From a virus: a DNA stretch of 29,130 nucleotides. The notes under the pieces are model-generated. The model worked only from the letters and a program-made list of their open reading frames with translations, ran no database searches and was not told the origin of the DNA. The translations under genes were made by a program, and so were the position numbers. Positions 2,296 to 21,748 of this stretch are shown here, one piece after another. Each line of letters opens with the position of its first letter. Position 1 is the first letter of the stretch. The stretch lies in IMG/VR virus record IMGVR_UViG_3300028563_000064, positions 1 to 29,130 of that record, one strand, 5' to 3'.

Positions 2296-2598
2296 ATGGG
2301 TCAGGCAGTTCATTACACGAAGAGGCAGCAGTGGGTTTGCTCTACCTGCCAGAAAGAGATCCCCGCCAGTGAGATCCTTAGTCCGAGAGAGTTCCAAATA
2401 CTCCTCGAATACGCTAAGGGCAAACAGGCAACCCAGATGGCACGAGAGATGTTTCTCTCCATTAAGACCATCAGCACCCACTTGATGAGAATTCGAGCCA
2501 AGCTTGGAGTATCTACTACCCGGTTACTCCTGATCTATGCTTGGGAGCACGGACTAATGTCCGGGGACTCTAGTAAGGGTTGCGTCCATCACAAGTGA
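2296..2598 (+). CDS. LuxR/GerE-type helix-turn-helix regulator
   Basis: A 100-residue protein whose residues 28-84 carry the GerE/LuxR HTH signature: LSPREFQILLEYAKGK, then IKTISTHLMRIRAKLGVSTT. The recognition helix falls at about 55-68. There is no receiver or autoinducer-binding domain, so this is a stand-alone DNA-binding module. A Cys pair (C15-x-x-C18) precedes the HTH and could be half of a zinc knuckle. The ATG at 2296 follows a GGAAG at 2286-2290. It begins a new block behind the stem-loop at 2252-2280. A role in switching phage transcription or rewiring a host regulon is inferred; its targets cannot be seen. Confidence 0.85.
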   Translation: MGQAVHYTKRQQWVCSTCQKEIPASEILSPREFQILLEYAKGKQATQMAREMFLSIKTISTHLMRIRAKLGVSTTRLLLIYAWEHGLMSGDSSKGCVHHK

Positions 2599-2610
2599 GA
2601 AGGAGACTTT

Positions 2611-2985
2611 ATGAAAACTGCAATTTTGATTCTCGCCCTGCTCGCGTCCCCGGCTTTCGCTACCGACCTATCCCCGGCAACCATTTGCCCGTCGTATTGC
2701 ACGGGGATCACTACCAATGACCTCGCCGTCACGGTCGATTACCTTAACCTGAATTCGGGCGGAGACACCACGATTATCTCGATCAACGGCGTGACTTACC
2801 GGGGAACCTCTGCCTGGACTTCGCTGACCACGAACCTGCTGCACGAGGACGTATACCTGTTCTCCCCGGACGGAACTCCGTTGCACTTCGTAGGCGACAT
2901 GCGCGATACCCGAACCTGCGTAAAGTCCGGACGCGGACAGCACTGCACGGATCGCCTTTACTTCCTGGGTGGGACGGTAGAGTAA
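2611..2985 (+). CDS. Small secreted protein with Sec signal peptide and two Cys pairs
   Basis: A 124-residue protein starting with a textbook signal peptide (MKTAILILALLASPAFA, cleavage after residue 17, AFA/TD). The mature part is about 107 residues and appears beta-rich. It carries Cys at 26 and 30 (CPSYC) and at 103 and 112, compatible with two disulfides in the periplasm. The AAGGAGA ribosome binding site at 2600-2606 is well spaced from the ATG. The stop overlaps the next start (TAATG). I do not recognise the family. An early exported phage protein could alter the host envelope or block superinfection, but that is inference from location alone. Confidence 0.75.
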   Translation: MKTAILILALLASPAFATDLSPATICPSYCTGITTNDLAVTVDYLNLNSGGDTTIISINGVTYRGTSAWTSLTTNLLHEDVYLFSPDGTPLHFVGDMRDTRTCVKSGRGQHCTDRLYFLGGTVE

Positions 2986-3242
2986 TGAAGGCTGGTCTCC
3001 TCCTCCGTTGGGGTTCTTTCTGGGTTGGGGTGCATTGGGCTCCCGAGCACAAACGCCTCTGCGTTAATCTCCTTCCCTGCGTCACCCTCTGGGTGATAGG
3101 TGAGGGAGGAGATGTTCCTTCGGCGCATCAGCACCGGTGGAAACTCTACGCCCGCCGATTAGATCATACGGGTTGGTCCTCTCATCTCGAATGCAAGTAT
3201 TGCCCCGAACGCAAAATTGTCTATGATGGAGAAGGGCCGTGA
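2985..3242 (+). CDS. Small conserved phage protein, Trp/Cys-rich
   Basis: An 85-residue protein coupled to its neighbours on both sides (TAATG at the start, GTGA at the end). Its first half (WGSFWVGVHWAP, then LCVNLLPCVTLW) resembles small proteins I remember from Burkholderia-type and uncultured phages, all without known function. Four Cys (26, 32, 70, 73), including a C-x-x-C near the C-terminus with nearby His residues, could bind a metal. There is no signal peptide or clear membrane helix. Function unknown. Confidence 0.65.
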   Translation: MKAGLLLRWGSFWVGVHWAPEHKRLCVNLLPCVTLWVIGEGGDVPSAHQHRWKLYARRLDHTGWSSHLECKYCPERKIVYDGEGP

Positions 3243-3694: not shown

Positions 3695-4264
3695 GTGGAA
3701 AGATCGGTTCGGTATATCAGGGTAGACGGGATGAAACCCGCCTTATGTTTTAGAGGCAAGAAACATGCCTATGCGATTATCAACGACGAGCCCTGTGTCA
3801 GGGCCGTCGAGGTAGATCTAAAGACCCACGACCTAGCCGGGGTTGTTGGCAAGGGATTCTTCCCCTACCCGCATGGGGAGTTTACCGAGAGGATGCAGGC
3901 CGTAGGCACCCGTAAGGGCATTACCCTACGCGCCCTGGCGCTCCTAGCCGTCCCGGAAGGTGCGGAGGACCCCGAGACCCTACCCCCCGACGAGATCGCC
4001 GCTCCGGAGCCCGCAGAGCGTCCTAGCCCCCCTCCGAAACCCCCGGCAAGCGAACGGAGAGCCCCAAAGCGGGCCGAACGGCAGGTAACCCCTAGCCCGA
4101 CCCCTAAACGGGGTGTTGGCGAACGGGGGAGCCTTATTGCAAAGCTTGCGGCCGAGCTAAATATTGCACCGCAGCAATTACGCTTAAGCTTACGGATGGC
4201 AGGCCTCCGAGCCCCCTACGACGACGAGGTTAAGATCCGCGCCGTGATTAAAGGAAAGAAGTAA
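3695..4264 (+). CDS. Phage protein with Pro-rich linker and 'LAAE-IAPQ' C-terminal domain
   Basis: A 189-residue protein with a GTG start and AAGGAG at 3683-3688. The N-terminal ~85 residues (RYIRVDGMKPALCFRGKKHA...) form a globular domain I do not recognise. Residues ~90-140 are a Pro/Arg/Lys-rich linker. The C-terminus (148-175: IAKLAAELNIAPQQLRLSLR) matches the C-terminal domain of the product at 1890-2243. The two are therefore linker-joined proteins sharing a module, probably for a common nucleic-acid or protein target. The stop overlaps the next start (TAATG). Function unknown. Confidence 0.65.
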   Translation: MERSVRYIRVDGMKPALCFRGKKHAYAIINDEPCVRAVEVDLKTHDLAGVVGKGFFPYPHGEFTERMQAVGTRKGITLRALALLAVPEGAEDPETLPPDEIAAPEPAERPSPPPKPPASERRAPKRAERQVTPSPTPKRGVGERGSLIAKLAAELNIAPQQLRLSLRMAGLRAPYDDEVKIRAVIKGKK

Positions 4265-4485
4265 TGCCCCACCATATCAGAGCCGTGTTCGTTCCTTTCG
4301 AGATCGGGGCTGACGGACTGGCGAAGAAGCGGGATGACTTACCCCGCTTTGCCGAGGACGAGATCGAGGCGATCAAGGACTATATCCAAAGCCACCCGAG
4401 ACTCGGGAGATCCAAACTAGAGTGGCGTCTGCACTCCGAGAAGGATCTGATAGCCGAGTACGTAGCCGGAGTAGGGGCTACCTAA
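4264..4485 (+). CDS. Small acidic hypothetical protein, last gene of the left operon
   Basis: A 73-residue protein coupled by TAATG to the gene before it. It is charged, with a predicted helix (FAEDEIEAIKDYIQSH) and no Cys cluster, signal or membrane segment. Its TAA shares bases with the TAG of the convergent late operon (4482-4485). I do not recognise the family. Confidence 0.55.
   Translation: MPHHIRAVFVPFEIGADGLAKKRDDLPRFAEDEIEAIKDYIQSHPRLGRSKLEWRLHSEKDLIAEYVAGVGAT
4462..4481. terminator. Hairpin at the convergent operon junction
   Basis: GTAGCC (4462-4467) pairs with GGCTAC (4476-4481) around an eight-base loop, immediately beside the interlocked stop codons. Neither strand has a T run behind it, so it is only a candidate bidirectional transcript end or RNA-stability element. 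Confidence 0.3.
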
Positions 4486-5372
4486 TCCTCACTTCCCAGG
4501 TCTTCCTCTAACCGTTCAGAAAGCCAGTCGGATAAACCGCCCGTCTTATCATGCTGTTTTAGTAACTTGTTCACCACGGTGGGGCCGTTTGCATCAAAGT
4601 GCTGTTGATAGAGATCATCTGGGTGAACTCCCAGTTGATTCGCCTTCTCTTCTACAGCGGAGAGAAAGTTCTGAGCCTTCCCTGTAAGCTTTGGATTCCA
4701 GCTAGGCAGCTCATCTTGCAGTCTCTGATGAGGAGAGAAACCCAGAGCCTCTTCGGTCCTCGATATGGTTGATTTAACCGTTGGTGCTATATCCGCTATA
4801 TCATTAGGGTGCATCTTAGGAATCATGCTCGTCGCCTGCGTTAAGGGTGACGCTGCCTTCTGCGCTACGGGTGCGGCCTCCTGCATCGTATGAGTCGCAA
4901 GCTTCGCAGCGGGTGCGGCGGCAGCACTAGCCGCAAGCAATTTTAGCAGGGTACGCCGTCCGGCATCTACCACCCCGCCACCGCCTGCTAGTTTCTGTTT
5001 CGGCATTCCATGGCCTGCGAGGCTTTGGCCTAAGTGCGGGAGCTTGATCGCAGCCCCCCCGATCTTCTGGTCTATGTTACGCATCGTATCCTGGATAGGA
5101 ATGCGAGGAGCGTGGAAGTGCATCATCCCGCCGAAGGCACTGTTGCCTCCTAGGTGCTGAACTCCCATCGGATTCCCGAAACCCCCTCCATGCCCTATGA
5201 CGCTAGAGAGCGGGGAGACCGGGCCGCCGGTAGCGTGCTCCCACTTACCAACCTGCTTATCCGCTTCATGGAAGTCGTGAGCGACCTTCTTCGACGGATG
5301 TTTCCCTGGGGGATTCCACCCGTGGTCGATAGCCGACATGTAATGAGCCTGCTTTTTACTACTGGATGGCAC
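4482..5372 (-). CDS. Late virion-associated protein with internal Tat-like motif
   Basis: A 296-residue protein, last gene of the late operon. The GTG start follows AAAGGGGAG and lies 14 bases inside the preceding gene. The N-terminus (SKKQAHYMSAIDHGW, then HPSKKVAHDFHEADK) resembles short phage proteins that begin SKxQ and lie in structural modules (DUF3008-like, from memory). The middle is Gly/His-rich. A KLAGGGGVV motif is followed by GRRTLLK (138-144) and an Ala-rich hydrophobic stretch ending in AxA, exactly the layout of a Tat signal but placed internally. The C-terminal ~120 residues are helical and polar. Association with the virion is inferred from operon position; function unknown. 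Confidence 0.65.
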   Translation of the reverse strand: MPSSSKKQAHYMSAIDHGWNPPGKHPSKKVAHDFHEADKQVGKWEHATGGPVSPLSSVIGHGGGFGNPMGVQHLGGNSAFGGMMHFHAPRIPIQDTMRNIDQKIGGAAIKLPHLGQSLAGHGMPKQKLAGGGGVVDAGRRTLLKLLAASAAAAPAAKLATHTMQEAAPVAQKAASPLTQATSMIPKMHPNDIADIAPTVKSTISRTEEALGFSPHQRLQDELPSWNPKLTGKAQNFLSAVEEKANQLGVHPDDLYQQHFDANGPTVVNKLLKQHDKTGGLSDWLSERLEEDLGSED

Positions 5373-6153
5373 CGGTGGTACTCCCCTTTGGTAGGGCGTT
5401 GATGATCTTATCGGAAGCGGTATTAGCCCCTCCGAGGATCGCGGAATCGGTTAGGAGTCGGGTTGCCGTTGCCGGGCGAAGAGCCCCGGTAAGTTCCATA
5501 AGACGTTTAGCCAAGGACGCCTTCTGTCCGGCTGCTCCCATCGGAATCGGAGAGGAGAGTTGACCTACCGCATCGAGGAGGTGGTCTGGCAGGCCGTGAG
5601 CTTCCCCGACCCCCGTTTGTTGGGCTACTCTCCTGTTTAACTCCGCGAGCCGCCCGGCTGCATCGGTCGAGAACTTAGGAGCCCACTTCCCGAGCATCGA
5701 TGGGGCCGCTAGGATCTCGTCCATAAATTTCGGATTGCCCTTTGTCAAGCTGGTTGACCCGTCCGGGTTCTTTAGGAAATGAGAGGACCCTAGGAACTGC
5801 GGGTTACCCTCCTCGTCAAGCCCGTAGAATTGGGAAGCAACCCCCGTCGCTAATCGAGCACGAGCCTCCGCCCCACCAGCGGGTCCTAGCTCCGCTGCGA
5901 CATCCGAGATCTTACGCAGCGAGGAGTCTTGGTCTACGTCGCTCGTATCTACCTGCCCACCTTCGGCAAAGGACGGTGGGGGATTGTTAAGCGCGTAGCT
6001 CGGAGGCATGTACCCGAGACGCATCATCGCAGAGTTAACCAACCAGTTAAGACCCGCGTTAGCGCCTGCATCCCCCGGGGTCGCCGCAGCGATAGCGGAT
6101 AACTCCGCCGCATACGGATCACCTTCCGGGGTTTTCTCTGTTGGGTTTGCCAT
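5359..6153 (-). CDS. Late hypothetical virion-associated protein
   Basis: The frame is open to 6216, but the ATG at 6153 is preferred. It sits four bases after the upstream stop with GGAG about 12 bases ahead, and the extra N-terminus would merely shadow the preceding gene. The 264-residue product has an N-terminal helical segment (YAAELSAIAAATPG), a FAEGGQV motif (GG-x-V) near residue 60, and an amphipathic Ala/Leu-rich C-terminus. The phrase LLDAVGQLSSPIP recalls unnamed proteins of other uncultured phages. It is part of the internal-virion gene block; role unknown. Confidence 0.6.
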   Translation of the reverse strand: MANPTEKTPEGDPYAAELSAIAAATPGDAGANAGLNWLVNSAMMRLGYMPPSYALNNPPPSFAEGGQVDTSDVDQDSSLRKISDVAAELGPAGGAEARARLATGVASQFYGLDEEGNPQFLGSSHFLKNPDGSTSLTKGNPKFMDEILAAPSMLGKWAPKFSTDAAGRLAELNRRVAQQTGVGEAHGLPDHLLDAVGQLSSPIPMGAAGQKASLAKRLMELTGALRPATATRLLTDSAILGGANTASDKIINALPKGSTTGAIQ

Positions 6154-6157
6154 CGCC

Positions 6158-7924
6158 TTACTCCGTTGGCTGCTTCGAGATCGCCTGCGGTAGGACAGCA
6201 CCGGCTGCCCCGCCACCGAGAACGGTCGCTGCAGTCCCGGCTCCCGCCCCTAGCTGCTTCGCTCGTTGCACACGAGCCGCTACGTCAGCGAGTCTAGCGA
6301 GTTGGTCTCCCCCGGCTTGACCGGATTGACTCATGATACTAGAGACCCCGCCCATATTAGGAGCAGCCGCCTTGGCTGCTAACCGTAGGGCTGTTAACTT
6401 AGGATGAACTACCGCATCCGCTATCGAGCTGATCGGACCTGCGCTAGGAGCGACGGCGGTGGCCGGTCCCTTCTTCGCGGCAGTAGTCATTACCTTCGTA
6501 TGGTCGTACATCTGCGCTTCCCGTTGCAGGGTGCCGATAAAGTCAGCGGCGTCCTTCGGGTTATCGAACAGAGCCCCGAGCTTCGCCTGCATGTCAGGGG
6601 TACCGATAAGCTTATACCCGGTGTTTACCTTCCCTGGGGTTTTACCGATCTCTCGAAAGAGCCCCTCAGCAACGCCGGAGCGGAAGGCGTCCTTAGAGGA
6701 GAAGTCCATATTCGTCATCGCCGCTTCCACGTCGTGGGGAGTCATCTTCGGGAACTCGTCTAAGCCAGAATGCAGGGCATCGACCACGGCATGATCGCTC
6801 TGAAATTGCTTGCGCGCTTCGGCATAGGGAGAGACGCCGTTAGGCCCGGCTGTTTTCGCGTCGATCTCGTCTACCATGCGATCACGCATCCCGCCGATAA
6901 TCCGCGCTTGGTTCTTATTCCCCGTCGCAGCCGCTCCCGCTACTTGATCGTCTAGCGCTCGCTTGACATAGTCGAAGTACTGGAGGGAGGGATTCATTAC
7001 CATGCCTTGGGGGTTAACCGGGCCGATAGGAACGCCGTCGGCTTTCATATCTTTCACAGCCCGTTTCGAGGCAGCTACGCCATACGGATTGTTAAGCACG
7101 TTAGAGAGCTGGTCCGACTGAATTGATGGGAAGGCTGCGTAGGCCTTATCGTAGAGAGGCTTGGCATTAGCTTTCATCGTAGCGACGAGTTTCTGCTCCT
7201 CATCCGTGTAGGGGCTAGGAGCGAGACCCTGGTTAACCGCCTCGGTGATTCGCTGTGGAGCCCCGGCCTGTCTCTGTTGAAGTTGCTGTGCGTAGGCCTG
7301 CGATTCCGGCGCTGGGGCTGCAATCGCCTGTTTAGCTAACGCCTGACCCTGCGGGCCTAGCACATCCCCGACTGTCTGCGGATTCGGGTTTGGCCCCCTT
7401 GCTCCTGATCGCAGTTCCGTAGCGAGGGCCTTTAACCGGGAGGACGCGGCTTGGGCGTTCCCCGCATCCGCAAGAACAGAAGAGGCGACAGCTCTCTCCG
7501 GAGAGGTAGTCTGCATCATCGTCTTAATCGCAGGCAGAGCCCGAGCCCCGGCATTAGCGGCCAAGCCGGTAGCAGCACCAGCCCCGGCCCCTACGAGGAG
7601 GTCAGAGGGTTTCCCCTCCTTGATCGCCTCCGGTACCGCAGCGGCACCCCCTGCCGTTGCCCCGACCGCCGCAGAGCCTACCACGGGATGGGCGGTAATA
7701 AACTCCCGCAAGGCACCGAGCCCCCTACTAATGCCCGGGTAGCGTCCTTTAAGCGCCATAGCGCCTGCCCCGAGGGCCGCAGCACCCCCGACCTCTAGCA
7801 GCCCCGCGTTAGGACTCCCGTCGCCAGGAGCGGGGGCCTGCGCGTGTTCTGGGGGAGCCGAGGAGGCCGCAGCGACCGCCTTTTCGGTTGACTGCTCGTC
7901 GTATTTGTCGAAGTAGTTACCCAT
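6158..7924 (-). CDS. Internal virion (ejection-type) protein
   Basis: A 588-residue protein coupled to the upstream gene by TAATG. It has two Gly/Ala-rich hydrophobic regions near the N-terminus (AALGAGAMAL; VVGSAAVGATAGGAAA, then LLVGAGAGAATGLAANAGA) and one near the C-terminus (GAGTAATVLGGGAAGAVL), resembling glycine-zipper membrane segments. The middle contains PLYDKAYAAF, YVKRALDDQV and YAEARKQFQ, which I recall from a widespread phage/prophage family beside internal virion proteins. Such proteins are carried in the capsid and ejected to help form a channel across the envelope. The ejection role is inferred from composition and context, not from a characterised homologue. Confidence 0.65.
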   Translation of the reverse strand: MGNYFDKYDEQSTEKAVAAASSAPPEHAQAPAPGDGSPNAGLLEVGGAAALGAGAMALKGRYPGISRGLGALREFITAHPVVGSAAVGATAGGAAAVPEAIKEGKPSDLLVGAGAGAATGLAANAGARALPAIKTMMQTTSPERAVASSVLADAGNAQAASSRLKALATELRSGARGPNPNPQTVGDVLGPQGQALAKQAIAAPAPESQAYAQQLQQRQAGAPQRITEAVNQGLAPSPYTDEEQKLVATMKANAKPLYDKAYAAFPSIQSDQLSNVLNNPYGVAASKRAVKDMKADGVPIGPVNPQGMVMNPSLQYFDYVKRALDDQVAGAAATGNKNQARIIGGMRDRMVDEIDAKTAGPNGVSPYAEARKQFQSDHAVVDALHSGLDEFPKMTPHDVEAAMTNMDFSSKDAFRSGVAEGLFREIGKTPGKVNTGYKLIGTPDMQAKLGALFDNPKDAADFIGTLQREAQMYDHTKVMTTAAKKGPATAVAPSAGPISSIADAVVHPKLTALRLAAKAAAPNMGGVSSIMSQSGQAGGDQLARLADVAARVQRAKQLGAGAGTAATVLGGGAAGAVLPQAISKQPTE

Positions 7925-9377: not shown

Positions 9378-10382
9378 TTAGCCGCCACTCGGGTTAAGGA
9401 GGTTATAGAGCCCCAGAGACTGCGAAAGCGGGGAAGCACCGTAACTTGGTGCATACCCTGTCTGAGCACTCGTCGAGCTTCCCGGTACCGTAGTCGGTGT
9501 CGCAGTCCCCGAGAGGATCTGGGAGAGGTAACCGAGCTGTTGATACGGGTACTGCTGCTGGTTCTGGAAGTTCTGGTAACCGACGTTAAGGTTCTGCTGA
9601 TTAAGTCCTTGCTGTTCTGCTCCGACCGTATCGAGTGCAGCCGCACCCTGCAAGCCGAGCGCTTGACCGGTCTGGGAGAGCGATCCGAGCTGAGAGGCCC
9701 CCTGCAACCCGAGGACGCCCTGCTCGTATCCGAGACCACCGAGGGTCTGTCCGAGCGCACCGGTTGCCTGCCCAGCGGCGAGTCCCGTCTGCTGTGCGTT
9801 CGTGTACGCTTGGGAGAGAGCGGACCCCGCCGTATCTTGGATATTCTGCGTGATCTGCGCGGCCCCCTGGTTTTGGGCTCTCGTGTTCGCACTCGATCCC
9901 GCCTGCCCTGCCGCCGCGTACTGCTGGTTAATCGAGGGCTGGAGGGTGTTATTCCAGTACTGAGTAGCCTGGTCCTCCGCCTGCTTGATAACGTTGTTCG
10001 TATACGGATTTAGCTGTGCAGCCGTAGGAGCTACTGCATTATTGATATAGCTCGAAGCCTGTGGCACAAAACTCTGAGCTTGTGTTAGCGCTCCCGGGGT
10101 TGCCGAGGAGCTTGCTAACCCCATCGCCTGGTTTAGGGGGCTCTGGTACTGGCCCTGAAGGTTCTGTACCTCGCTCTGCGCCTGCGTCTGCGGGTCCGTA
10201 AACCCCGCGACTTGGGGACCCCCATAAGGCTGATATGGTTGCCCCGCTAGCGCCGCTGCCTGCCCTAAGATGCCCTGGCTATACTCCTGCAACCACGTCG
10301 GGACTTGAGACGACGATGTCCCGTAGTTCGTGGTCGAGGTCGGAGCCTGACCTTGGAATAAGAAGTCGAGAACGGAACTCAT
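9378..10382 (-). CDS. Gln/Gly-rich phage structural protein (internal virion type)
   Basis: A 334-residue low-complexity protein rich in Gln, Gly, Ala and Tyr. The N-terminus (WLQEYSQGILGQAAALAG, then PYQPYGGPQVAGFTDPQ) and the middle (LNPYTNNVIKQ, QQYAAAGQAGSSANTRAQNQ) match a very common uncultured-phage family upstream of internal virion genes. Long Gln-rich helices are predicted. The ATG is one base after the upstream stop (TAACATG). A virion protein in the ejection apparatus is likely, but no biochemistry is known to me. Confidence 0.7.
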   Translation of the reverse strand: MSSVLDFLFQGQAPTSTTNYGTSSSQVPTWLQEYSQGILGQAAALAGQPYQPYGGPQVAGFTDPQTQAQSEVQNLQGQYQSPLNQAMGLASSSATPGALTQAQSFVPQASSYINNAVAPTAAQLNPYTNNVIKQAEDQATQYWNNTLQPSINQQYAAAGQAGSSANTRAQNQGAAQITQNIQDTAGSALSQAYTNAQQTGLAAGQATGALGQTLGGLGYEQGVLGLQGASQLGSLSQTGQALGLQGAAALDTVGAEQQGLNQQNLNVGYQNFQNQQQYPYQQLGYLSQILSGTATPTTVPGSSTSAQTGYAPSYGASPLSQSLGLYNLLNPSGG

Positions 10383-12807: not shown

Positions 12808-13031
12808 AGAGGTACTGCCTGGATAAAGCGCATAGCCCACTCCCTCCAATCACCAAAGTGGCGGGGGTCCGGGGGATGGAATTGGGAGATCTTCGTACTC
12901 GACGAAACACTTATCGCCCACCGCTGCCAGTCATGCTCCGAGAGGAGCGTAGGAACAGTAACTAGCTGCCCTAGATCCAGAGCGGTCAAGTCGCACCAAT
13001 CCTTGACGTTAAGGCCTCTCGGGTCTATCAC
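12804..13031 (-). CDS. Small conserved structural-module protein
   Basis: A 75-residue protein with GTGA overlap upstream and ATGA overlap downstream. LNVKDWCDLTALDL, W-x-x-WA and the C-terminal PPDPRHFGDWREWAMRFIQ ending in VPL match a small protein I recall between the gp10-like hub gene and large internal virion genes of other phages. There is no signal peptide. Its Trp/Asp-rich surface suggests a connector or chaperone, but that is speculative. Confidence 0.7.
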   Translation of the reverse strand: MIDPRGLNVKDWCDLTALDLGQLVTVPTLLSEHDWQRWAISVSSSTKISQFHPPDPRHFGDWREWAMRFIQAVPL

Positions 13032-14551
13032 GATGAGTACCTCCCGTCCGTTTCCTCGATGTGCGCGAGGGTGTGACCGAGGTAGTAGTCACCTCCGGGA
13101 GTGTTCGACTCGATTTGGAAAGCAAGTAACCGCGCGTTCTCCTTTAGGTAAACGAGCTGGGTATCCGGCGTCGTTACTACCGCTGGAACGACCTTCGGCA
13201 CCGAAGCGCTCTGAGACAACGTCGCATTCGCTCTCTGGTAGACGGTTAGAGTCAAATCCCCCGTCTGCCCAAAGTCAGGCTCCACGAGAGAGACGCCTAG
13301 CGCCTTATCCTTTGGCTGCGGAGCTACGAGCGGGGACATCTCCGTGGTCTTAAAGTACGAACGGATAGGGGTGATCTGCCCGTTCTGGTTTTTATCCAGT
13401 CCGGTCTCGTGCTGCCAAAGAGTAAATCCGGTCTCTGTTTCGTCGAGGTCCGTCATGTAAGGCTTGTTAAACGTGCGCGGGGAAGTACCCGAGGTACGTC
13501 CTAGGTCCGGAAGTGGCGTATCATACCAAACTCCTAACTGGGTGTTATAGATCACGGCATGGTTGCATTCCGTCGAGGACCCGAATGGGAAGCACCACCA
13601 GATCTCGCAAGCGGCCTGAACCTTAATGGCGAAGACCTTTTGACGGTACTGGAAATTTAGGTTCTTAAAGAAGAAGTCCAGATTCTGGGTATTCGGTAAC
13701 TCCCGAACGATGCCGTTAAACATCGAGAAGTGATCGACCTCGGGCCAGTAGTAGATCCCGTCGAACTCTACGATGGCGCTAGAGGAGAGGACCGAGGTGT
13801 CGCTAGAGATCGTGTTAAAGTTAAACGGGATGCCCGCGAGCAACGCCGCGTTGTAGGTTGCTACGATAAGCTCGGACATTGACCAGAGGATCATCGCGGG
13901 CCCACCGGACCCGTTGCGCAGGGGCAGGCCCTTTACGATCTTTTGGTCTGATACGAAAGCCGAATTAGGAGCAGTAGTAACATTGTTGATGGCCGAGACA
14001 TCGATACGACCGAAGTTACCGTATCCGATCAGGTAAGGAGAAACAGCAACGACGCCCCCGCTAACAGGGTCCATTCCTGAGGCGACTAAGGGAGTAGCCG
14101 CATTGACATCTCCGTAGTAGATCGGGGTCTCTGTAAGACTCGTGATCTCCGCTAGGTTAGGAGACCCGTTAGCTACTAGCACCGTTTGTCCGGAGGCCGT
14201 GTTATAAAAGGTGTCGAACTGCCAGAGGTTATTCGCATTAACAGCGAACCCAGCCGGAGTACGGTCATTCTGCGCCCCGGGGTTACCGAACTGGTCTGAC
14301 TGGATCTGCTCTAAGAACGACTCGGAACCTAAGTGCAGGTAATTGATCCCCCCGAAGAAGTAGGCATCCATCCCGTAGACCTTCTCCGGGAGTTGAGAGG
14401 TGATGCTCTTATATCCTGCGATCTTTCGAGGCAGAGCACGGCGGGAAAACCGGCACCATTGCCCGTCCTTATACTCGTCGCCTTCCAGCAGGGTACCGTC
14501 CCGTTTGATACCAGGCTTCGAGATGATTCTAACTGGGGTTGGGGCTGTCAT
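13028..14551 (-). CDS. P22 gp10-like tail hub / DNA-stabilisation protein
   Basis: The ATG at 14551 is one base after the upstream stop (TAACATG); the in-frame extension to 14614 would only shadow the fibre gene. The product is 507 residues. Its N-terminus (KPGIKRDGTLLEGDEYKDGQ, then WCRFSRRALPRKIAGYKSI) is the hallmark of phage stabilisation/hub proteins that start with 'xPGIxRDGT' and 'WxDxxxVRFRxGxPEKIGG'. The remainder is beta-rich with repeated aromatic-Gly turns (PEVDHFSMFNGIVRELP), consistent with a beta-propeller. Such proteins plug the portal-adaptor channel below the head. Neighbours (adaptor, fibre, internal virion genes) agree. Confidence 0.75.
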   Translation of the reverse strand: MTAPTPVRIISKPGIKRDGTLLEGDEYKDGQWCRFSRRALPRKIAGYKSITSQLPEKVYGMDAYFFGGINYLHLGSESFLEQIQSDQFGNPGAQNDRTPAGFAVNANNLWQFDTFYNTASGQTVLVANGSPNLAEITSLTETPIYYGDVNAATPLVASGMDPVSGGVVAVSPYLIGYGNFGRIDVSAINNVTTAPNSAFVSDQKIVKGLPLRNGSGGPAMILWSMSELIVATYNAALLAGIPFNFNTISSDTSVLSSSAIVEFDGIYYWPEVDHFSMFNGIVRELPNTQNLDFFFKNLNFQYRQKVFAIKVQAACEIWWCFPFGSSTECNHAVIYNTQLGVWYDTPLPDLGRTSGTSPRTFNKPYMTDLDETETGFTLWQHETGLDKNQNGQITPIRSYFKTTEMSPLVAPQPKDKALGVSLVEPDFGQTGDLTLTVYQRANATLSQSASVPKVVPAVVTTPDTQLVYLKENARLLAFQIESNTPGGDYYLGHTLAHIEETDGRYSS

Positions 14552-14552
14552 G

Positions 14553-16535
14553 TTAAACCCAGAACGGCATCCAGCCGACACCCAGACCCTGCACGGCCAC
14601 CCGAACCCAAGCAACGGGTTGAGCTCCTACCCCGGGGTATGTGGCCCCGCCGATGGAGGCAACACCACCTCCGGTGGCGGTATAGGGGAGATCGAGGTTT
14701 AGGGCAACGGGGTTGGCAGCAGTGGCGAAAAGGCGCATAGCTGTTTGCCCAATCCCCGCAGTAGCAAGATTCAGGGTAGGATTAAGAGCCCCGTTAGCGG
14801 AAGCTATGGTAAGAGAGGACCCGCCTACGGGGGGGGAGCCGATAAACATCCCGGAGGGAGCGATAAGGAGACGCGAGGAGACGGCCGTATTGTCATAGAC
14901 CTCCCAGATGCCTCCACCCGAGATACCTACTCCCGCGTAGTAAGACCGCCCGGAATTACCATCCAGGTAATTAGCATATGCTCCGTGACCAGCCGAACCT
15001 AGGAGCTGGAGCTGAGGACTGCCCGCCGCATCACCCTGTACGGATAGAGTGGTACCTGCGGTAGCTCCATTAATGAGAATATTCCCGGTTCCCCCGATGG
15101 TTATTCGCGCTGCATTGTTTGTTACGAGGCTAAACGGTATCGCCTGAGCGGGCCCCATCCCGAATTGTTCCCCCGTCGGGCCGTTGGAGAAGGGACTTGC
15201 TGTATACCCAACAGAGGTAAGAGTCAAGTTAACGAAGTGAGGTCCGTCGTTATAAAAATAGGCGCTTATGTCCCCGATGACTCCGCTGGTCCCAGGTCCC
15301 GCGTTCCAGGCCTGAGCACCGTTTAAATTAGCCTGGAAAAGACCTGCTTGGAATAGGCCACCTACGTTTAGGGTTGCACCGCTGGAGGACGCCGGGATGC
15401 TAAATTGCCCGGTACCCGACTGGTAGGTCATCGAACTACCGCCGAAGGCACCCGCATTGTTGTACTGTACCTGGGTATTAGCTCCTCCCGCCGTTGCGGC
15501 CGGGATAGACACTGCGTTGATGACGTTCGTGCCATCGCAGTACAGAATTGCCCTATTACCCTGAGCTACTAGAACGGGAGCACCACCGGCGCTGAATCCT
15601 AGCGTAAAGGCTCCCGAAGTTTCATTATCTACCCAGTACTGCTGAATCGACCCTGGAACGATCACGGTCACGTTACCCGCGAGGGCTCCGGTAAACCGGT
15701 AGGAGATCCGATTAAGTTGGGCTCCGGAGAGTACGTAGTTGCCGGGACCGACTCCGCCTAGGGAGATCTGCACGAAGTTAAAGGTAGAGACCACCGAGCG
15801 TCCGAACCCTAGGGTGACGAAGTTAATCCCGTCCGTAACGATGATGGCAGAATCAAAGGGCTGAAAGACTTGAGAGGCCGCTCCATTGATCGTCCCCGAG
15901 GGAGGCGTAACTGTTAGGGTACCGGTGCCCGAGTTCTGCACATAGGCGAACCACCCGGAACCTACGGTAGCCGGGTTAGGGAGAGTAAAGACACCACCGG
16001 AGCCTCCGGTCCATTCGATCAGGGAAGCGCGATCTTGCAGAGGGCCAGAACCTATGACGTAGTTCGCACTCTGCTGGTTGATATTAATATTTTCATTCAG
16101 AGTAGTAGAGATCGCCTTTAAGCCTGCCCCGGCAAGAGCCCCGGCATTCGCACTAGAGACCCCTGCACCGAATTGGAATACTCGCCACGTCCCGGCCTGC
16201 GTCGAATTATCGGCTAGGTAGATCTGCCAGACCTGCCCCGAGGGAACTACCATTAACGTGTTTCCGAGATTATCGGTAACCGTAAAGGAATTCGCCCCGA
16301 CGTTATTAAACAGAGCGCAATAGCCCGTCGAGGATTCGCGGGCATCGTCTAGCCGAAGGGAGAGGCCCACAGCGGTCGCTGTGATATCTAAGATCTCGGC
16401 TAGGACTGGTTGCCCACCTGCGGTAAGCTCGGTAGGCCACCCAAGCAGGATATTGGTCGAAACCGTCAGAGGGATATAGGTCGGCAACGCCGGGGCGATG
16501 TTGTTGCCCCCGAAGACTGTTTGAAAAGAACCCAT
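14553..16535 (-). CDS. Conventional tail fibre / receptor-binding protein (no signal peptide)
   Basis: A 660-residue beta-rich protein with a near-perfect AAAGGAGG ribosome binding site (16545-16552). The N-terminus (LPTYIPLTVSTNILLGWP) looks like a virion-anchoring domain. It contains three related beta modules at about 60-123, 181-240 and 285-350; the second (TLPNPATVGSGWF, NSGTGTLTVTPPSG, TINGAAS, TDGINF) also occurs in the exported protein at 23996-26992. The C-terminal half resembles a fibre tip with Gly/Asn/Ser-rich turns (GAHGAYANYLDGNSG..YYAGVG-like pattern). Only two Cys, in contrast with the signal-peptide fibres upstream. It lies between adaptor and hub genes, as expected for a tail fibre. 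Confidence 0.75.
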   Translation of the reverse strand: MGSFQTVFGGNNIAPALPTYIPLTVSTNILLGWPTELTAGGQPVLAEILDITATAVGLSLRLDDARESSTGYCALFNNVGANSFTVTDNLGNTLMVVPSGQVWQIYLADNSTQAGTWRVFQFGAGVSSANAGALAGAGLKAISTTLNENININQQSANYVIGSGPLQDRASLIEWTGGSGGVFTLPNPATVGSGWFAYVQNSGTGTLTVTPPSGTINGAASQVFQPFDSAIIVTDGINFVTLGFGRSVVSTFNFVQISLGGVGPGNYVLSGAQLNRISYRFTGALAGNVTVIVPGSIQQYWVDNETSGAFTLGFSAGGAPVLVAQGNRAILYCDGTNVINAVSIPAATAGGANTQVQYNNAGAFGGSSMTYQSGTGQFSIPASSSGATLNVGGLFQAGLFQANLNGAQAWNAGPGTSGVIGDISAYFYNDGPHFVNLTLTSVGYTASPFSNGPTGEQFGMGPAQAIPFSLVTNNAARITIGGTGNILINGATAGTTLSVQGDAAGSPQLQLLGSAGHGAYANYLDGNSGRSYYAGVGISGGGIWEVYDNTAVSSRLLIAPSGMFIGSPPVGGSSLTIASANGALNPTLNLATAGIGQTAMRLFATAANPVALNLDLPYTATGGGVASIGGATYPGVGAQPVAWVRVAVQGLGVGWMPFWV

Positions 16536-16538
16536 GAC

Positions 16539-17276
16539 CTAATCCTCCTTTCTAACCGAAGCTCTATCGACCACGCGAGTTAGGTCCTCGGTTCCTAGAC
16601 CGGTCACGGCTTCCTCATACATCTCCTTCCAAACAGAGATACGCTCATCGTTTTTTAGGAATGGGGTGCATTCTAGGAGAGCCCGGTACAGCAGGGTCTC
16701 GGGGGCAAAATCCGTCCAGAAGTTTGTCTGGTTGGTACTATCGAGCAGGTTCGGTAATCCATAGTAGTTAATCTCCCAGGCATAGTCGATGTCGGGAGTC
16801 GGGACTATCAACCAATGCTTATAGTCGTAGTCCGCATAGAATTCGGGGGGACCCGTCTGGGTAGAGTCCGGCCAGTAGGATCGGCAATACTCATACGAGC
16901 GAGCGAAGAGCGGCACCCGCTGATTCTGGTTATCTATCCCAAGAGAACTAACCTCGTCGATAGTTCCAGGACCGTCGATGGTTATTGGGCTATCCACGGT
17001 ATCAGAATTCGAGCCTGCGGCACCGACACCGTAGTTCATCGAAGTAGTGCGACGCCATCCAGAGGGTTTAGCGTAGACCGGGACCCCTACCGTTAGGACA
17101 GAGGTCACCGGGATTATCATGCCCGTGATTTTCAACCTACGCGCTATGGCCCTCTCCGCTAAGTTGATTAGACTCGGCAGTTGGTTATAGACAGTAGGGT
17201 CCGTAGAAGGACCGCCACGCTCCAAATACGACTGAAGCGTTTTGATCAAACTCGTGAAAGTCAGGGCAGTGGCCAT
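16539..17276 (-). CDS. Head-to-tail adaptor (SU10 adaptor-like)
   Basis: A 245-residue protein coupled by TAATG. LTFTSLIKTLQSYLERG, PSLINLAERAIARRLK, PSGWRRTTSMNYG, RSYEYCRSYWPD, PEFYADYDYKHWLIVPTPD, then APETLLYRALLECTPFLKND and DERI together make a strong match to the adaptor family attached below the portal in short-tailed phages (SU10 adaptor / gp11-like). Length is normal for the family. It should form a dodecameric ring linking portal and hub, agreeing with the gp10-like protein two genes downstream. Confidence 0.85.
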   Translation of the reverse strand: MATALTFTSLIKTLQSYLERGGPSTDPTVYNQLPSLINLAERAIARRLKITGMIIPVTSVLTVGVPVYAKPSGWRRTTSMNYGVGAAGSNSDTVDSPITIDGPGTIDEVSSLGIDNQNQRVPLFARSYEYCRSYWPDSTQTGPPEFYADYDYKHWLIVPTPDIDYAWEINYYGLPNLLDSTNQTNFWTDFAPETLLYRALLECTPFLKNDERISVWKEMYEEAVTGLGTEDLTRVVDRASVRKED

Positions 17277-17482
17277 TACGCCGCCTTATCCTGCGCTTCC
17301 GGTGGTACGGGAGGCGGAGGAGTAGGCAGAAGCGATACACGATTCGCTAAGATCATCCGTTGCTTCTCCTGCTGGATCTGCTGAATGACCCCGAAGACGA
17401 AGTTTAACTGGTTGCCCTTAACGACCAGGGCCTCCGAGGTCAACAGCGCTTCGATACTGTTAAGAGTTTCAAGAGATAACAT
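17276..17482 (-). CDS. Small structural-module protein with Pro-rich tail
   Basis: A 68-residue protein with AAGGAG at 17488-17493 and an ATG 14 bases inside the upstream gene; its stop overlaps the adaptor start (TAATG). One amphipathic helix (LNSIEALLTSEALVVKGN, then VFGVIQQIQQEKQR) ends in a Pro-rich tail (PTPPPPVPPE). Short proteins of this kind sit beside adaptor genes in related phages. Function unknown. Confidence 0.6.
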   Translation of the reverse strand: MLSLETLNSIEALLTSEALVVKGNQLNFVFGVIQQIQQEKQRMILANRVSLLPTPPPPVPPEAQDKAA

Positions 17483-18053
17483 TTTTGCTCCTTAGACGTT
17501 GGGTGAGGAAAGGACCCCACTCTTTTAGTTTCTCAGGTGTGAAAAAGTCGCTATGTCCGGAAACCACCGGCATCCCTTTCGTGATATCGCAATGGAAGTT
17601 CTGGATAGCTGGGTCGTTACCGACGTAACCGGTATGGCCTAGCTCTCCCCACTCCTCATCTACGATATGAGCCTTCTCCGCAAACTTGGCAACCTCGGTT
17701 ATGCGATCCCCGCTGTTGCAGTAGACATCGATAAACTCGCACTTGTCGGGACGACGGATAGCGGACTGTAAAGCACCGTTAATGAACACGGCCCCCCTTA
17801 CCGGGGCTCCCTGCAACAGTAAGTGGTAAGCAATCGCGCAGCCGTTAGAATGGCCTACGAGAATATCACCGGGCTCGATGTATGGAAGGAGAACCCCCTC
17901 GACTGCTGGGTTTAGCAACCGAGTCTCCACGGCGAGTTCATACCCGTACTCTGGGTAACGGGCATCGAAACCCGCATCCATCAAGTAGACGAGCAACCCC
18001 CGAACGGGGCTGTCTGGTGAGGTATGAATGCCGTGGATAAGGTGGACTTTCAT
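17469..18053 (-). CDS. Alpha/beta hydrolase (serine esterase-like) next to lysis genes
   Basis: A 194-residue alpha/beta hydrolase: beta-1 with an HGIHT oxyanion-type turn (7-11), nucleophile elbow GHSNG (67-71, Ser69), acid in NSGDRI (Asp116) and His in SGHSDFF (His167). The catalytic triad is therefore complete. No signal peptide, so it is cytosolic until lysis or is virion-borne. It follows holin and endolysin candidates, a position reminiscent of LysB esterases in mycobacteriophages, but it lacks their length and GYSQG-type motif. It may cleave an ester in an envelope lipid, capsule or acyl-modified polymer. Enzyme class is secure, substrate unknown. Confidence 0.8.
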   Translation of the reverse strand: MKVHLIHGIHTSPDSPVRGLLVYLMDAGFDARYPEYGYELAVETRLLNPAVEGVLLPYIEPGDILVGHSNGCAIAYHLLLQGAPVRGAVFINGALQSAIRRPDKCEFIDVYCNSGDRITEVAKFAEKAHIVDEEWGELGHTGYVGNDPAIQNFHCDITKGMPVVSGHSDFFTPEKLKEWGPFLTQRLRSKNVIS

Positions 18054-18560: not shown

Positions 18561-18773
18561 TTACGTGTGCTTCGCGATCATGTAAACGAGAGTAGCGGTA
18601 GAGACTAAAAGAGCGAGAATGGCAATCCAAGTATTACGTCCCTGGTCGGTGCGTTCCATCGCCACCTTTACTGTTTCTAAGGCCAGGATCGTGGCACGAT
18701 CAAGGGCCGCTAACCTCGTGTCTATATAGTCACGAAGAGATACCGTGTTGCTATGATCCTGGTCTTCGTTCAT
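18561..18773 (-). CDS. Coiled-coil protein with C-terminal membrane anchor, holin/lysis candidate
   Basis: A 70-residue protein coupled to the endolysin by ATGA. A polar N-terminus (LRDYIDTRLAALDRATILAL...) forms a helix or coiled coil to about residue 44, followed by one transmembrane helix (48-67) and a basic tail. This layout recurs in phage lysis cassettes as holin, antiholin or regulator. Two membrane proteins in the cassette suggest a holin/antiholin pair. Confidence 0.6.
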   Translation of the reverse strand: MNEDQDHSNTVSLRDYIDTRLAALDRATILALETVKVAMERTDQGRNTWIAILALLVSTATLVYMIAKHT

Positions 18774-19144
18774 TTCGTCGCTCCTTCATCCGGAGTTAAC
18801 GAGTAATGGTTATTGTCCTTCGAGTGAAAGTCGCCCCCCCAACAGAAGTCGGGCTGTTGCAACTTCCACCAGGCCCCTAGCTCCTTATGTCCCGTATCGT
18901 CCGTGATATAGGTCCCATCCGGGAGATAGAGATTTACGTCGATGGCGAGACCTTCGAGATGCAGAGAGTTCGTGATGCCCTTACCGTCCTTCGCGTTTAG
19001 GGCGGCTACCCGAGGATCACGCACCCACTCGCAGCGACCGGCCAGGTAGCCGAGATCGAAAGCCTTATCGATCAAACGCGGAACCCACTTAGCGAAGCGG
19101 GTCTGTTTCTCTCGTAGGGTCTCGTTTACAGTAGGCTCTGGCAC
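18770..19144 (-). CDS. Endolysin, M15-family L-Ala-D-Glu / D-Ala peptidase
   Basis: A 124-residue single-domain peptidase of the VanY/M15C type. Zinc ligands are visible in SLHLEGLAIDVNLY (S60, H62, D69) and NNHYSL (H113), with the family's WGGDF turn between. It should cleave peptidoglycan stem peptides during lysis. GTG start, overlapping the spanin-like gene by 19 bases, with only a weak GAGAG ahead, so it is probably translated by coupling. It lacks a signal peptide, consistent with release by a holin. Confidence 0.88.
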   Translation of the reverse strand: MPEPTVNETLREKQTRFAKWVPRLIDKAFDLGYLAGRCEWVRDPRVAALNAKDGKGITNSLHLEGLAIDVNLYLPDGTYITDDTGHKELGAWWKLQQPDFCWGGDFHSKDNNHYSLTPDEGATK

Positions 19145-19540: not shown

Positions 19541-21748
19541 TTATGGTTGAACGAACGGCGTATTGGCATCCCAACGAGCTTTGGCGGGGAGCCCGCTTGT
19601 AGCGGTACACCCTGCTCCTGTGGGGGTCTGGAGCTTAGTGCCAGCAGCCGGGGTGACCCACGGCCAGGCATATCTGCAATTGATGCCTGAGGTACCGAAC
19701 TCGGGAGGGGTCGTAGAGGTATACAGGGAACTCGGGAATACCTGCGAGTACCCCGCTGGGGTATCTACGATGCTGTTCGTAAAGAAGTCATAGTTTCCAC
19801 TACGAAACAGGAGCTGGGGGTTATTAACCCCGTTAAGGTTGTTGTCGTTGCAGTAGATCCCACCGTTACCGCACTCGGAGCCGGTCCAGCCTAGAAGCCA
19901 GATCTCACCCTTATTGTTTGGGCACCCGGCAGTCCCGAAGCATCCCTGATAGACGTAACCGTTAGCAGCGGTAGTGACACCAGAGATACCTAACACATTA
20001 CCTACGTAGGCCATCTCGTAATCCCACATCATAGCCCCCGCCGCACGCAGGGGGCCTGGGGGGTACGGGTAAGCTTGGCCGGTGGCGTACCCGAGCCCGC
20101 TGTTGTCGTTGACGGTCCCGCTAGCAACTCCGAAGGTCACCGAGGAGCTAAGAGTCAGACTCGGGTCCGTAAAGGGAGGGCGCTGGGATAGAAACCAGTT
20201 ACGGAAGAAGGTGTGAGCAGTGACGTTGCCGTGAGTCTCATCGTCGTCGCCGTTATCCCCCTGATTACCCTCGAAGAGGATTCCGTGGCAGCCGACGTAG
20301 TGGGAACCGTTAACGCCCATATCGAGGAGGTAGTTACCGATGCCGCTGTTGGCCTGATACATCGTTTCACCGATGTAATTATAGGAGACCACGTTGCCCC
20401 CACCGCATGAGCGACCTACCATCCCCTTGCCGCCCAGTCTGATGATGCTGTTCGTAATCATCGACTCGGTAGTAGCGCCATCGATGGCTACGGGGTACTC
20501 GATCCCGTTGTTTTCGAGATCCGCCCCGTCGTGGAAGTAAACGGTATTAAGCTCGATCCGCAGAGAATTGCTGATGACTACGCCACCGCGCCATAGGAAG
20601 GTTTCCACGTTTTTAAGCCAGCACCCGTCGCAGTACTGGAAAACCACCGGGTCCTGGGTGGACCTCTCAATCGTAACATTCTCCAAACCCGCTCCGGAGA
20701 TAAATGGCACGGAGGTACCGGAGGCGTTGGTTGGCCAGTAGACTTGAGCGAAATGGGGGCTACCGGCTCTAAACGCTACCGTCACCGGCGAGTCGAAGGT
20801 GATAGTGCAAAGGGCTCCTGGGCACACCGAACTGATGGCGGAGATCTTCTTCACCTCGCTAGTTTCCCGATCATAGACGGCCCCGTAGGCTTGCCCATCC
20901 TCCACCGTGGTGCAACCGGGGCAGTAGACTATCCTCCCGATCATCGGACTGGTGTTTGCGGCGGCATAGTCGAGTGCGCCGAAAAGGTTAGCTGCAAGAC
21001 TCCCGCTGGTGTTCGCCGGGTTTGTCTGTGTAGTGGCTCCAGAGGCCTCGTCGATACGTACATCCATTCCTACGGCGAGATTAGCCACGCTATTAAGCTG
21101 GACGGTCGTTGCTCCCTGGAAAACGCTGAAAGCTAACTGCGCGCCGCACCCGGTGGCCGAAACTCCGTAGGGGCATCCTGCCCACCACAGGTTATTGTTC
21201 GGATTCGCTCCTATCCGCACGGTCGCATTGGTGCTAACCCCGGGGCATGGGGAAGTCCCGGGGGCAGTTGCTCCGCAAGCACCCGAAGCTACGTAGGTCT
21301 GTAACATCCCATTATAGACAAAGAATTCGGTTCCGCAGAAGGCAACGGGAGGTTCACCCCCACCGGCAACCGTACATGCGGCACCCCGAACGGTGATGCC
21401 CTTATTAATCAGAACGGTCTGAGTGTTATCGAGATAGAACTTACCCGAGGAAAGCTGAACGACCCCGTTAGCGGCGCAAGCGGCGATGGCAGCGGTAATC
21501 AGGGTGTAATCATCTCCTGCCGTAGGAGGCGTAAGGTGGCCGCTAGGGCTAACGGTAGCTCCGCATTGGGTTCTGGTGGTAGGGATGCCGCCGTAGAACA
21601 GCATCCCGGCTTTCGGCCAGTTAGCTGCCGAGAGATCATTAATAGCTGGAAGAAACGGAGCCGTCGAGGCAACTCCTCGCCCATGCCGTATGGCGGCCTG
21701 TGCGTTTGCTACCAGCAGAGAGAGCAGAAGGGCGATGATATATTTCAT
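19541..21748 (-). CDS. Secreted, Cys-rich right-handed beta-helix spike / pectate-lyase-like protein
   Basis: The ATG at 21748 overlaps the upstream TGA (ATGA) and begins a Sec signal peptide (MKYIIALLLSLLVANAQA, cut after residue 18); longer starts would be shadows. The 735-residue product shows pectate-lyase/tailspike hallmarks: AGDDYTLITAAIAACAANG, VVQLSSGKFYL and INKGITVRG, then repeated Asn/Gly/Val-rich rungs (GLENVTIERS, WLKNVETFLW, GGVVISNSLRIELNTVYFHD). It carries 22 Cys, many paired closely (CPGC, CDGC, CPGALC, CFGTAGC, CGNGGIYC), implying disulfides formed outside the cytoplasm. It may degrade or bind host polysaccharide. It could be a virion spike or an enzyme secreted by the infected cell. 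Confidence 0.75.
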   Translation of the reverse strand: MKYIIALLLSLLVANAQAAIRHGRGVASTAPFLPAINDLSAANWPKAGMLFYGGIPTTRTQCGATVSPSGHLTPPTAGDDYTLITAAIAACAANGVVQLSSGKFYLDNTQTVLINKGITVRGAACTVAGGGEPPVAFCGTEFFVYNGMLQTYVASGACGATAPGTSPCPGVSTNATVRIGANPNNNLWWAGCPYGVSATGCGAQLAFSVFQGATTVQLNSVANLAVGMDVRIDEASGATTQTNPANTSGSLAANLFGALDYAAANTSPMIGRIVYCPGCTTVEDGQAYGAVYDRETSEVKKISAISSVCPGALCTITFDSPVTVAFRAGSPHFAQVYWPTNASGTSVPFISGAGLENVTIERSTQDPVVFQYCDGCWLKNVETFLWRGGVVISNSLRIELNTVYFHDGADLENNGIEYPVAIDGATTESMITNSIIRLGGKGMVGRSCGGGNVVSYNYIGETMYQANSGIGNYLLDMGVNGSHYVGCHGILFEGNQGDNGDDDETHGNVTAHTFFRNWFLSQRPPFTDPSLTLSSSVTFGVASGTVNDNSGLGYATGQAYPYPPGPLRAAGAMMWDYEMAYVGNVLGISGVTTAANGYVYQGCFGTAGCPNNKGEIWLLGWTGSECGNGGIYCNDNNLNGVNNPQLLFRSGNYDFFTNSIVDTPAGYSQVFPSSLYTSTTPPEFGTSGINCRYAWPWVTPAAGTKLQTPTGAGCTATSGLPAKARWDANTPFVQP

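Follow-up and report, generated by a model that had tools for sequence, protein, structure and literature searches.

An internal Tat-signal-like segment behind a GG motif in a late protein of an uncultured phage, and its recurrence in other environmental phage proteins

The stretch of DNA analysed here (hereafter the window) is a virus record of 29,130 bases, IMGVR_UViG_3300028563_000064, in which a minus-strand late block ends with the gene P0001 (4482-5372, minus strand), encoding 296 aa from a GTG start that is backed by its orthologues, which begin V/M-P-S. The neighbouring ORF (4264-4485) lies on the opposite (plus) strand. On the minus strand, the N-terminal part of the protein (residues 1-120; 5013-5372) is common to syntenic orthologues, and weak matches link its residues 1-45 to phrog_16759 and its residues 1-51 to the virion structural family phrog_22033 (E 0.0021 and 0.0053). 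Residues 127-157 read, in order, KLAGGGGVV (127-135; 4968-4994), i.e., the GG motif past which orthologues diverge, DAG, RRTLLK, with its twin arginine at residues 139-140 (4953-4958), an uncharged Ala-rich run of 12 residues, LLAASAAAAPAA (145-156; 4905-4940), and Lys 157 (4902-4904), which closes the run and stands at the same position as the K of most modules in the marine proteins described below. The part from residue 136 to 157 (bases 4902-4967) is DAGRRTLLKLLAASAAAAPAAK. The rest of the protein (residues 158-296; 4485-4901) is a C-terminal passenger for which no relative was found. An in-frame ATG (Met123; 5004-5006), 16 codons before the RR and with a weak 3-base Shine-Dalgarno match, is a possible, unsupported internal start.

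Further up the late block, ORF 9378-10382 matches the DNA ejection protein phrog_4287 (E 4.2e-16), ORFs 13028-14614 and 16539-17276 match virion structural proteins, and the latter also matches the SU10 adaptor family. The position of P0001 in this block suggests that it is a member of an ejection block. Direct homologues of P0001 were found neither among phages (E<=0.01) nor among viral contigs. Nor did phages yield a match when the segment was searched by itself, which is uninformative, since the low-complexity filter can mask Ala-rich sequence.

Other parts of the window have peculiarities of their own. Four consecutive late-strand ORFs (19541-26992, minus strand) begin, as judged by eye, with Sec-type signal peptides at their presumed starts, as exemplified by MKKILLALLLLLGCGGAYAQ at 23996-26992; they have no Pfam match at E<=0.01, and the syntenic stretch of the related contigs L002 and L003 holds other, smaller ORFs. 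Sec-type signal peptides are unusual in phage late genes. Next to P0001, at 5359-7924 (minus strand), ORFs 5359-6216 and 6158-7924 (285 and 588 aa) face a single ORF of 979 aa with several GG motifs in one of these contigs (L002), the 285-aa ORF matching its residues 770-949; from the positions of the ORFs, we read this as the splitting or fusion of a gene in comparison with L002, not as a frameshift error. There is also a small helix-turn-helix protein of the LuxR/GerE type at 2296-2598 (plus strand; E 2.1e-13), and the late block holds a weak alpha/beta hydrolase match at 17469-18053 (minus strand; E 0.003, below our cut-off) near a gene for an M15-type peptidase at 18770-19144 (E 7.4e-7).

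A sequence-only reading of this DNA had claimed an internal twin arginine and Ala-rich run after KLAGGGGVV in the last late gene, and the internal Tat-like segment is confirmed as described there. In GRRTLLK the twin arginine stands in the (S/T)RRxFLK context of Tat signals, with the small correction that TLLK and not xFLK comes after the RR. Similarly, the AxA that the same reading had seen in the Ala-rich run is there, and is trivial in a sequence so rich in Ala. To what degree such a layout occurs by chance was assessed with a strict pattern (RR-x-[FL]-[LMIFV]-K plus 12 uncharged residues), which was written after the motif had been seen. Of 200,000 shuffled versions of P0001, two contain it, and none does when A-x-GG within 20 residues upstream is also demanded. 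Across 84 related-phage loci (from the best 80 of 580 relatives), 1045 distinct ORFs (325,859 aa) did not yield a single match; the ORFs in these searches are longest-ORF greedy calls, with shadow frames included. As the pattern postdates sight of the motif, calibration on E. coli is fairer evidence than the shuffles. Applied to seven E. coli regions picked for their Tat genes (191 ORFs), the strict pattern gave nine matches, all in proteins known as Tat substrates, and missed four of the 13 Tat genes. A looser pattern gave five matches in 1294 greedy ORFs at 88 loci, and by eye only the match in the window was in a credible late gene with the layout. A search for a GC-rich RR pattern without GG pointed to nine loci, with the motif in an ORF at five of them, and these were judged to be chance or shadow frames.

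The segment is not a constant part of its gene. Three IMG/VR contigs (L002, L003 and L004, the first two nearly identical here) carry a syntenic operon whose last gene is the orthologue of P0001, yet homology extends over residues 1-120 only (40-42% identity pairwise by position in the operon comparison, 45-47% in a separate alignment), and past the GG motif these orthologues have another C-terminal module, without the RR segment. More generally, at 11 loci with a P0001-type N-terminus, one of which (L344) yielded no ORF in the count, the motif is in none of the ten ORFs obtained (nine distinct, two of them only 62-63 aa). The RR pair is thus not conserved in the orthologues of P0001 because the whole segment is missing there, and conservation of the segment at the same gene, which we had considered, is rejected; among carriers elsewhere, the pair is kept (see below), so the expectation of a conserved RR holds for these alone. 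Given that the orthologues have residues 1-120 and not the segment, the latter behaves as a cassette joined at the GG motif, and we infer that recombination at this junction may be the cause of its presence and absence.

The tail protein encoded at 13028-14614 is common to five contigs, L002, L003 and L004 among them, and its family was found in four of the eight records searched for it, with the caveat that some records may be fragments: those of L319 (E 1.5e-193), L341 (3.7e-188), L279 (1.6e-29) and the pelagiphage HTVC027P (5.4e-21). It is absent from the records of L312, L300, L306 and L138, which are possible fragments. The L341 record holds a P0001-type protein without the segment, and L279 is a marine carrier. 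In L319, an RR segment sits not in the P0001-type gene, but in the gene beside it. The orthologue of this L319 gene in L019 is 47% identical to it up to just before the GG motif, where it ends, and the segment is absent. Directly after this short orthologue lies an ORF that we read as an HNH-like endonuclease (L019:17784-18296); it may have replaced the C-terminal part of the protein, and truncation at this place is also possible. In 023Pt_psg01, two genes stand between TerL and the head-tail connector, with GG motifs in at least one and the RR segment in neither. This patchiness in L319/L019, in 023Pt_psg01 and in the relatives of P0001 means that the segment comes and goes at or near GG junctions.

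That internal RRxFLK-type segments also occur in other environmental phage proteins, as the sequence-only reading had stated, turned out to be right, and most of them follow GG motifs. One scan, for GGAGG followed after a short gap by RRxFLK with AGR arginine codons, pointed to at least 120 stretches, and 80 of these contained 83 matches, ten of them in frame within an ORF and seven (six distinct) with the internal layout. The module counts given below take in all 120. A second scan was by homology (tblastn with an RR-containing query), and 80 of its 135 confirmed relatives were used. The carriers are mainly large marine-type phage proteins reading ...GGRIGF..G..xPKRRxF(L/M)K, then 12 uncharged residues and K. 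In 65 distinct marine modules (among the matches listed) together with gp42 of HTVC027P, the pair is RR in 64 and KR in two of the 66. Since the expression that defined these modules (second R, F/L/I, hydrophobic residue, K/R) favoured RR, the counts were repeated without the RR pattern as anchor. Anchoring on the C-terminal domain gave 59 RR and one KR in 60 proteins, with five truncated proteins set aside; proteins whose ORF was without the RR pattern of the scan gave 33 RR and one KR of 34, all of which had passed tblastn against an RR sequence.

The remaining parts of the module are equally regular. A search for RRxxLK-type segments and their spacing to GG motifs had been proposed. In a set of 66 modules with at least 12 uncharged residues, gp42 not among them, 63 indeed have a GG no more than 30 residues ahead of the segment, whereas 513 do of 2657 windows drawn at random from these proteins. 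The uncharged run of P0001 is exactly 12 residues long, as it is in 61 of these 66; in the 66 modules that include gp42, with no requirement on the length of the run, positions +6 to +16 are always free of charged residues. K follows at +18 in 62 of 66, so that Lys stands on both sides of the run. The RR is internal: over 86 marine ORFs, some of them truncated, its median position is residue 687, with a median distance to the C-terminus of 207.5 residues. P0001 resembles this recurrent GG-RR module in its GG within 30 residues, its basic pair-x-hydrophobic-x-K and its 12-residue uncharged run, and in an alignment of 28 modules (window included) its RR falls on the RR of 25 others and the KR of two. 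A profile of the modules finds it among 3164 greedy ORFs at E 1.5e-4, and an E. coli Tat signal scores comparably.

Pairwise blastp gave no significant match among the passengers of P0001, L319, L312 and L140, and P0001 is without the C-terminal domain of the marine family (which starts near MPxWFP), its best match to the L140 passenger having an E of 7.2. With a GC-rich pattern, the scan further turned up L300/L304 and L319, which have GG, and L312, which has none; the L312 protein has a ParB-like stretch and adjoins a portal gene. The same scan found Tat-like segments nearer to the N-terminus in L306 and L315, and its remaining matches look like chance. In L306, on a contig of 185 kb, the ORF (2311-3150, 279 aa) has RREFLK at residue 34, an Ala/Gly run, an acidic N-terminus and no in-frame GG. 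Isolate homologues of the L312, L319, L300 and L306 proteins were not found at E<=0.01, and HTVC027P gp42 matched HTVC027P alone. In bacterial genomes, two of 113 candidate stretches were confirmed: a MAG contig with a marine-type module (L351) and L352, which we read as an aldo-keto-reductase-like protein with an ordinary N-terminal Tat-like signal.

By profile, the phage modules are Tat-like. Of the 28 modules, that of the window counted in, 16 match Pfam TAT_signal (PF10518) at E<=1, eight TIGR02811 and four TIGR01409. The L312 protein, at 24.6 bits, is over the curated TAT_signal cut-off of 22.7 and P0001, at 10.1 bits, is under it. In the opposite direction, with a profile derived from the phage modules, P0001 comes out on top, and eight of the 13 E. 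coli Tat proteins follow before the first of 168 non-Tat E. coli ORFs, with E<0.01 for HybO and FdnG only and five of the 13 unlisted. A profile of the short core ranks six of the 13 before the first non-Tat ORF, with P0001 third and one other gene of the window mixed in. HybO comes close to P0001 with the full profile (15.8 vs 19.6 bits) and surpasses it with the core one (15.7 vs 9.2), so the profile match of P0001 is no proof of common descent. Mean Kyte-Doolittle hydropathy over the 12 residues is 1.63 in the window and 1.75 in the marine modules, within the 0.98-1.89 of the E. coli Tat set. The run itself is shorter and more constant, 12 in most modules vs 13-22 in 12 of the 13 E. coli signals (the 13th, NapG, has an immediate charged residue), and AxA occurs at +15 to +41 in only seven of 66 modules, so that a conserved signal-peptidase site is not apparent. 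Moreover, the pair is internal and not N-terminal, both in P0001 (residue 139 of 296) and in the marine proteins. Two other families touch the region. One is phrog_27431, which meets residues 129-164 of P0001 (E 0.036) and matches one of the 28 modules only. The other is Pfam Dicistro_VP4, the cricket paralysis virus VP4 family, which matches 13 of 28 (best E 1.9e-4), possibly by chance. Dicistrovirus VP4 is membrane-active.

For the marine family, structure prediction does not place the segment in a soluble helix bundle, which had been named as an outcome that would speak against its being a signal. The AlphaFold model of the C-terminal part of the marine family (48 sequences, mean pLDDT 80.5) has the RR segment as an isolated low-confidence helix, followed by a linker and a confident beta domain, for which there is no fold match at E<=0.001 in PDB or BFVD. 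The model of P0001 itself, with a mean pLDDT of 39, is unusable. With a Kyte-Doolittle window of 19 residues and a threshold of 1.6, 44 of 45 long marine proteins have no hydrophobic helix before the RR and the other has one; P0001, L300, L312, L319 and gp42 have none either. At the segment itself, the best 19-mer has a median of 1.37 and stays under 1.6 in 43 of the 45 marine proteins.

The GG motif has a life beyond this segment. In the form [FYM]AxGGx[VI] it occurs 80 times in relatives of the window (best 80 of 580) vs 4.75 in shuffles, and 65 times vs 2.85 in marine loci, which were partly selected for GG or for the family; the E. coli sample has no such enrichment (0 vs 0.3). In the cases compared, it borders a variable module. 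A phage-encoded protease for such motifs was considered, and gp34, noted as 'Pdase_C33_assoc' in PMC12753301, was rejected as the candidate, since a gene of only 141 bp is too little to build on. Of 67 modules with at least 12 uncharged residues, including that of the window but not gp42, 59 have an in-frame ATG within 30 codons upstream, at -2 in nine of them, and the density of ATG upstream of the segment is 5.2%, vs 2.6% in whole proteins.

How could these features be interpreted? The reading that we favour, tentatively, is that the segment would serve as an uncleaved signal-anchor of the Tat type, targeting the C-terminal passenger to the inner membrane of the host, and that it entered a late protein as a cassette. 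A late protein, probably of the ejection block, would have gained by recombination at the GG junction a portable unit made up of the Tat-signal-like segment (RRxxLK, 12 uncharged residues, Lys) and an exchangeable passenger domain. The segment would most likely be bound via the twin-arginine recognition site of TatBC, and the passenger would be targeted to, or anchored in, the membrane while virions assemble or once it has entered the cell together with the phage DNA. We favour a signal-anchor, and hence a presumed topology, of this kind because the segments are weakly hydrophobic and followed by positive charges but have no helices upstream; a polytopic Sec-Tat arrangement is rejected, since upstream helices are missing from 44 of 45 long marine proteins. 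A variant with a masked signal, which takes up the proteolysis idea of the sequence-only reading, seems to us rather improbable: the Tat-like segment would be hidden within the larger late protein in the producing cell, putative cleavage at GG during head maturation would bare it as a new N-terminal signal, and the Tat system of the next cell would then move the C-terminal domain into or across the inner membrane. If this were true, the cassette would be a mobile address label common to unrelated phage proteins.

Membrane insertion might also proceed independently of Tat, with the short hydrophobic helix and its basic pair entering the host membrane as ejection proteins cross the envelope, and we regard this as possible, if somewhat doubtful. 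The late block of P0001 includes a match to a DNA ejection protein (9378-10382), HTVC027P gp42 and the L312 protein adjoin portal genes, the run is flanked by Lys on both sides, and 13 of 28 modules match Dicistro_VP4, possibly by chance. A run of 12 residues is short for this, however, with the best 19-mer under 1.6 in 43 of 45 proteins, and such insertion has no need for RR, F and K kept at their Tat positions. It is unlikely, in our view, that RRxFLK and the helix are a docking or cargo peptide that binds capsid, portal or scaffold and loads the protein into the head. Carriers with identified neighbours do sit in head/packaging or late blocks, a near-constant spacing of 12 residues (61 of 66) fits a contact between helix and groove, and the helix is predicted to be isolated, with flexible neighbours, yet docking leaves unexplained why bacterial Tat signals rank at the top of the module profile, and the syntenic relative 023Pt_psg01 has two proteins at the same place without the segment.

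Very little likelihood attaches to a nested gene, in which an internal start just before the segment would give rise to a short protein of its own with the usual Tat signal at its N-terminus. The frequent upstream in-frame ATGs (59 of 67) and their raised density are what it would predict, but eight of the 67 modules have no such ATG, Shine-Dalgarno matches are mostly 3-4 bases, several ATGs lie inside GG motifs and AxA sites are rare. About as improbable, and to us barely credible, is chance, i.e., a functionless Ala-rich linker of P0001 that happens to follow an RR. No readable homologue of P0001 has the segment, P0001 is under the curated Tat cut-off, and five matches of the looser pattern in 1294 greedy ORFs show that loose look-alikes exist; against this, the layout arises in only 2 of 200,000 shuffles, P0001 has the GG, the 12-residue run and the Lys in common with the recurrent module, and its relative L319 has a similar segment in the neighbouring gene.

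If the signal of the favoured reading, the uncleaved Tat-type signal-anchor, works, phages would be using the Tat system of the host for late or injected proteins by means of an internal, swappable label after a GG motif. This would help in working out what the large uncharacterised proteins of environmental phages do, and would give the GG motif a testable role.

In the open-access literature we found internal Tat-like segments described for no phage late protein, the nearest case being the releasin gp25 of phage Mu, for which a twin-arginine motif and the Tat system have come under discussion (PMC9239132). As far as the consulted part of that paper goes, gp25 is a lysis protein, and its arginines stand in reverse order relative to the hydrophobic part, unlike those of the phage modules. 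Internal Tat signals as such are known in Sec-Tat dual-targeted membrane proteins, e.g., the actinobacterial Rieske protein; in these, it is important that the segment is weakly hydrophobic and followed by positive charges (Tooke et al. 2017, PMC5449189; PMC13186574). According to the portions of these two sources drawn on here, the Rieske type resembles the phage proteins in its internal RR, its weakly hydrophobic segment and the positive charges before a C-terminal domain, and differs in having Sec-inserted helices ahead of the RR and cofactor domains behind it; the phage proteins tested are almost without such upstream helices and show no recognised cofactor domain. Among cultured phages, the closest counterpart is gp42 of the pelagiphage HTVC027P (QGZ17823.1, a hypothetical protein), which sits between gp41 and the portal gene gp43 and has a GG motif, a basic pair-x-F-x-K and a run of 12 residues in its C-terminal part; it differs from P0001 in its KR instead of RR, its length of 892 aa, its genomic place and its passenger. 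Ordinary Tat signal peptides (PF10518, TIGR01409) are N-terminal, whereas the phage segments are internal, with a run of mostly 12 residues and mostly no AxA, and P0001 remains under the curated cut-off. Even so, they have in common with the phage modules the RRx(F/L)LK, the weakly hydrophobic uncharged run and the basic residue after it, and within E. coli it is Tat signals that the phage profile matches best.
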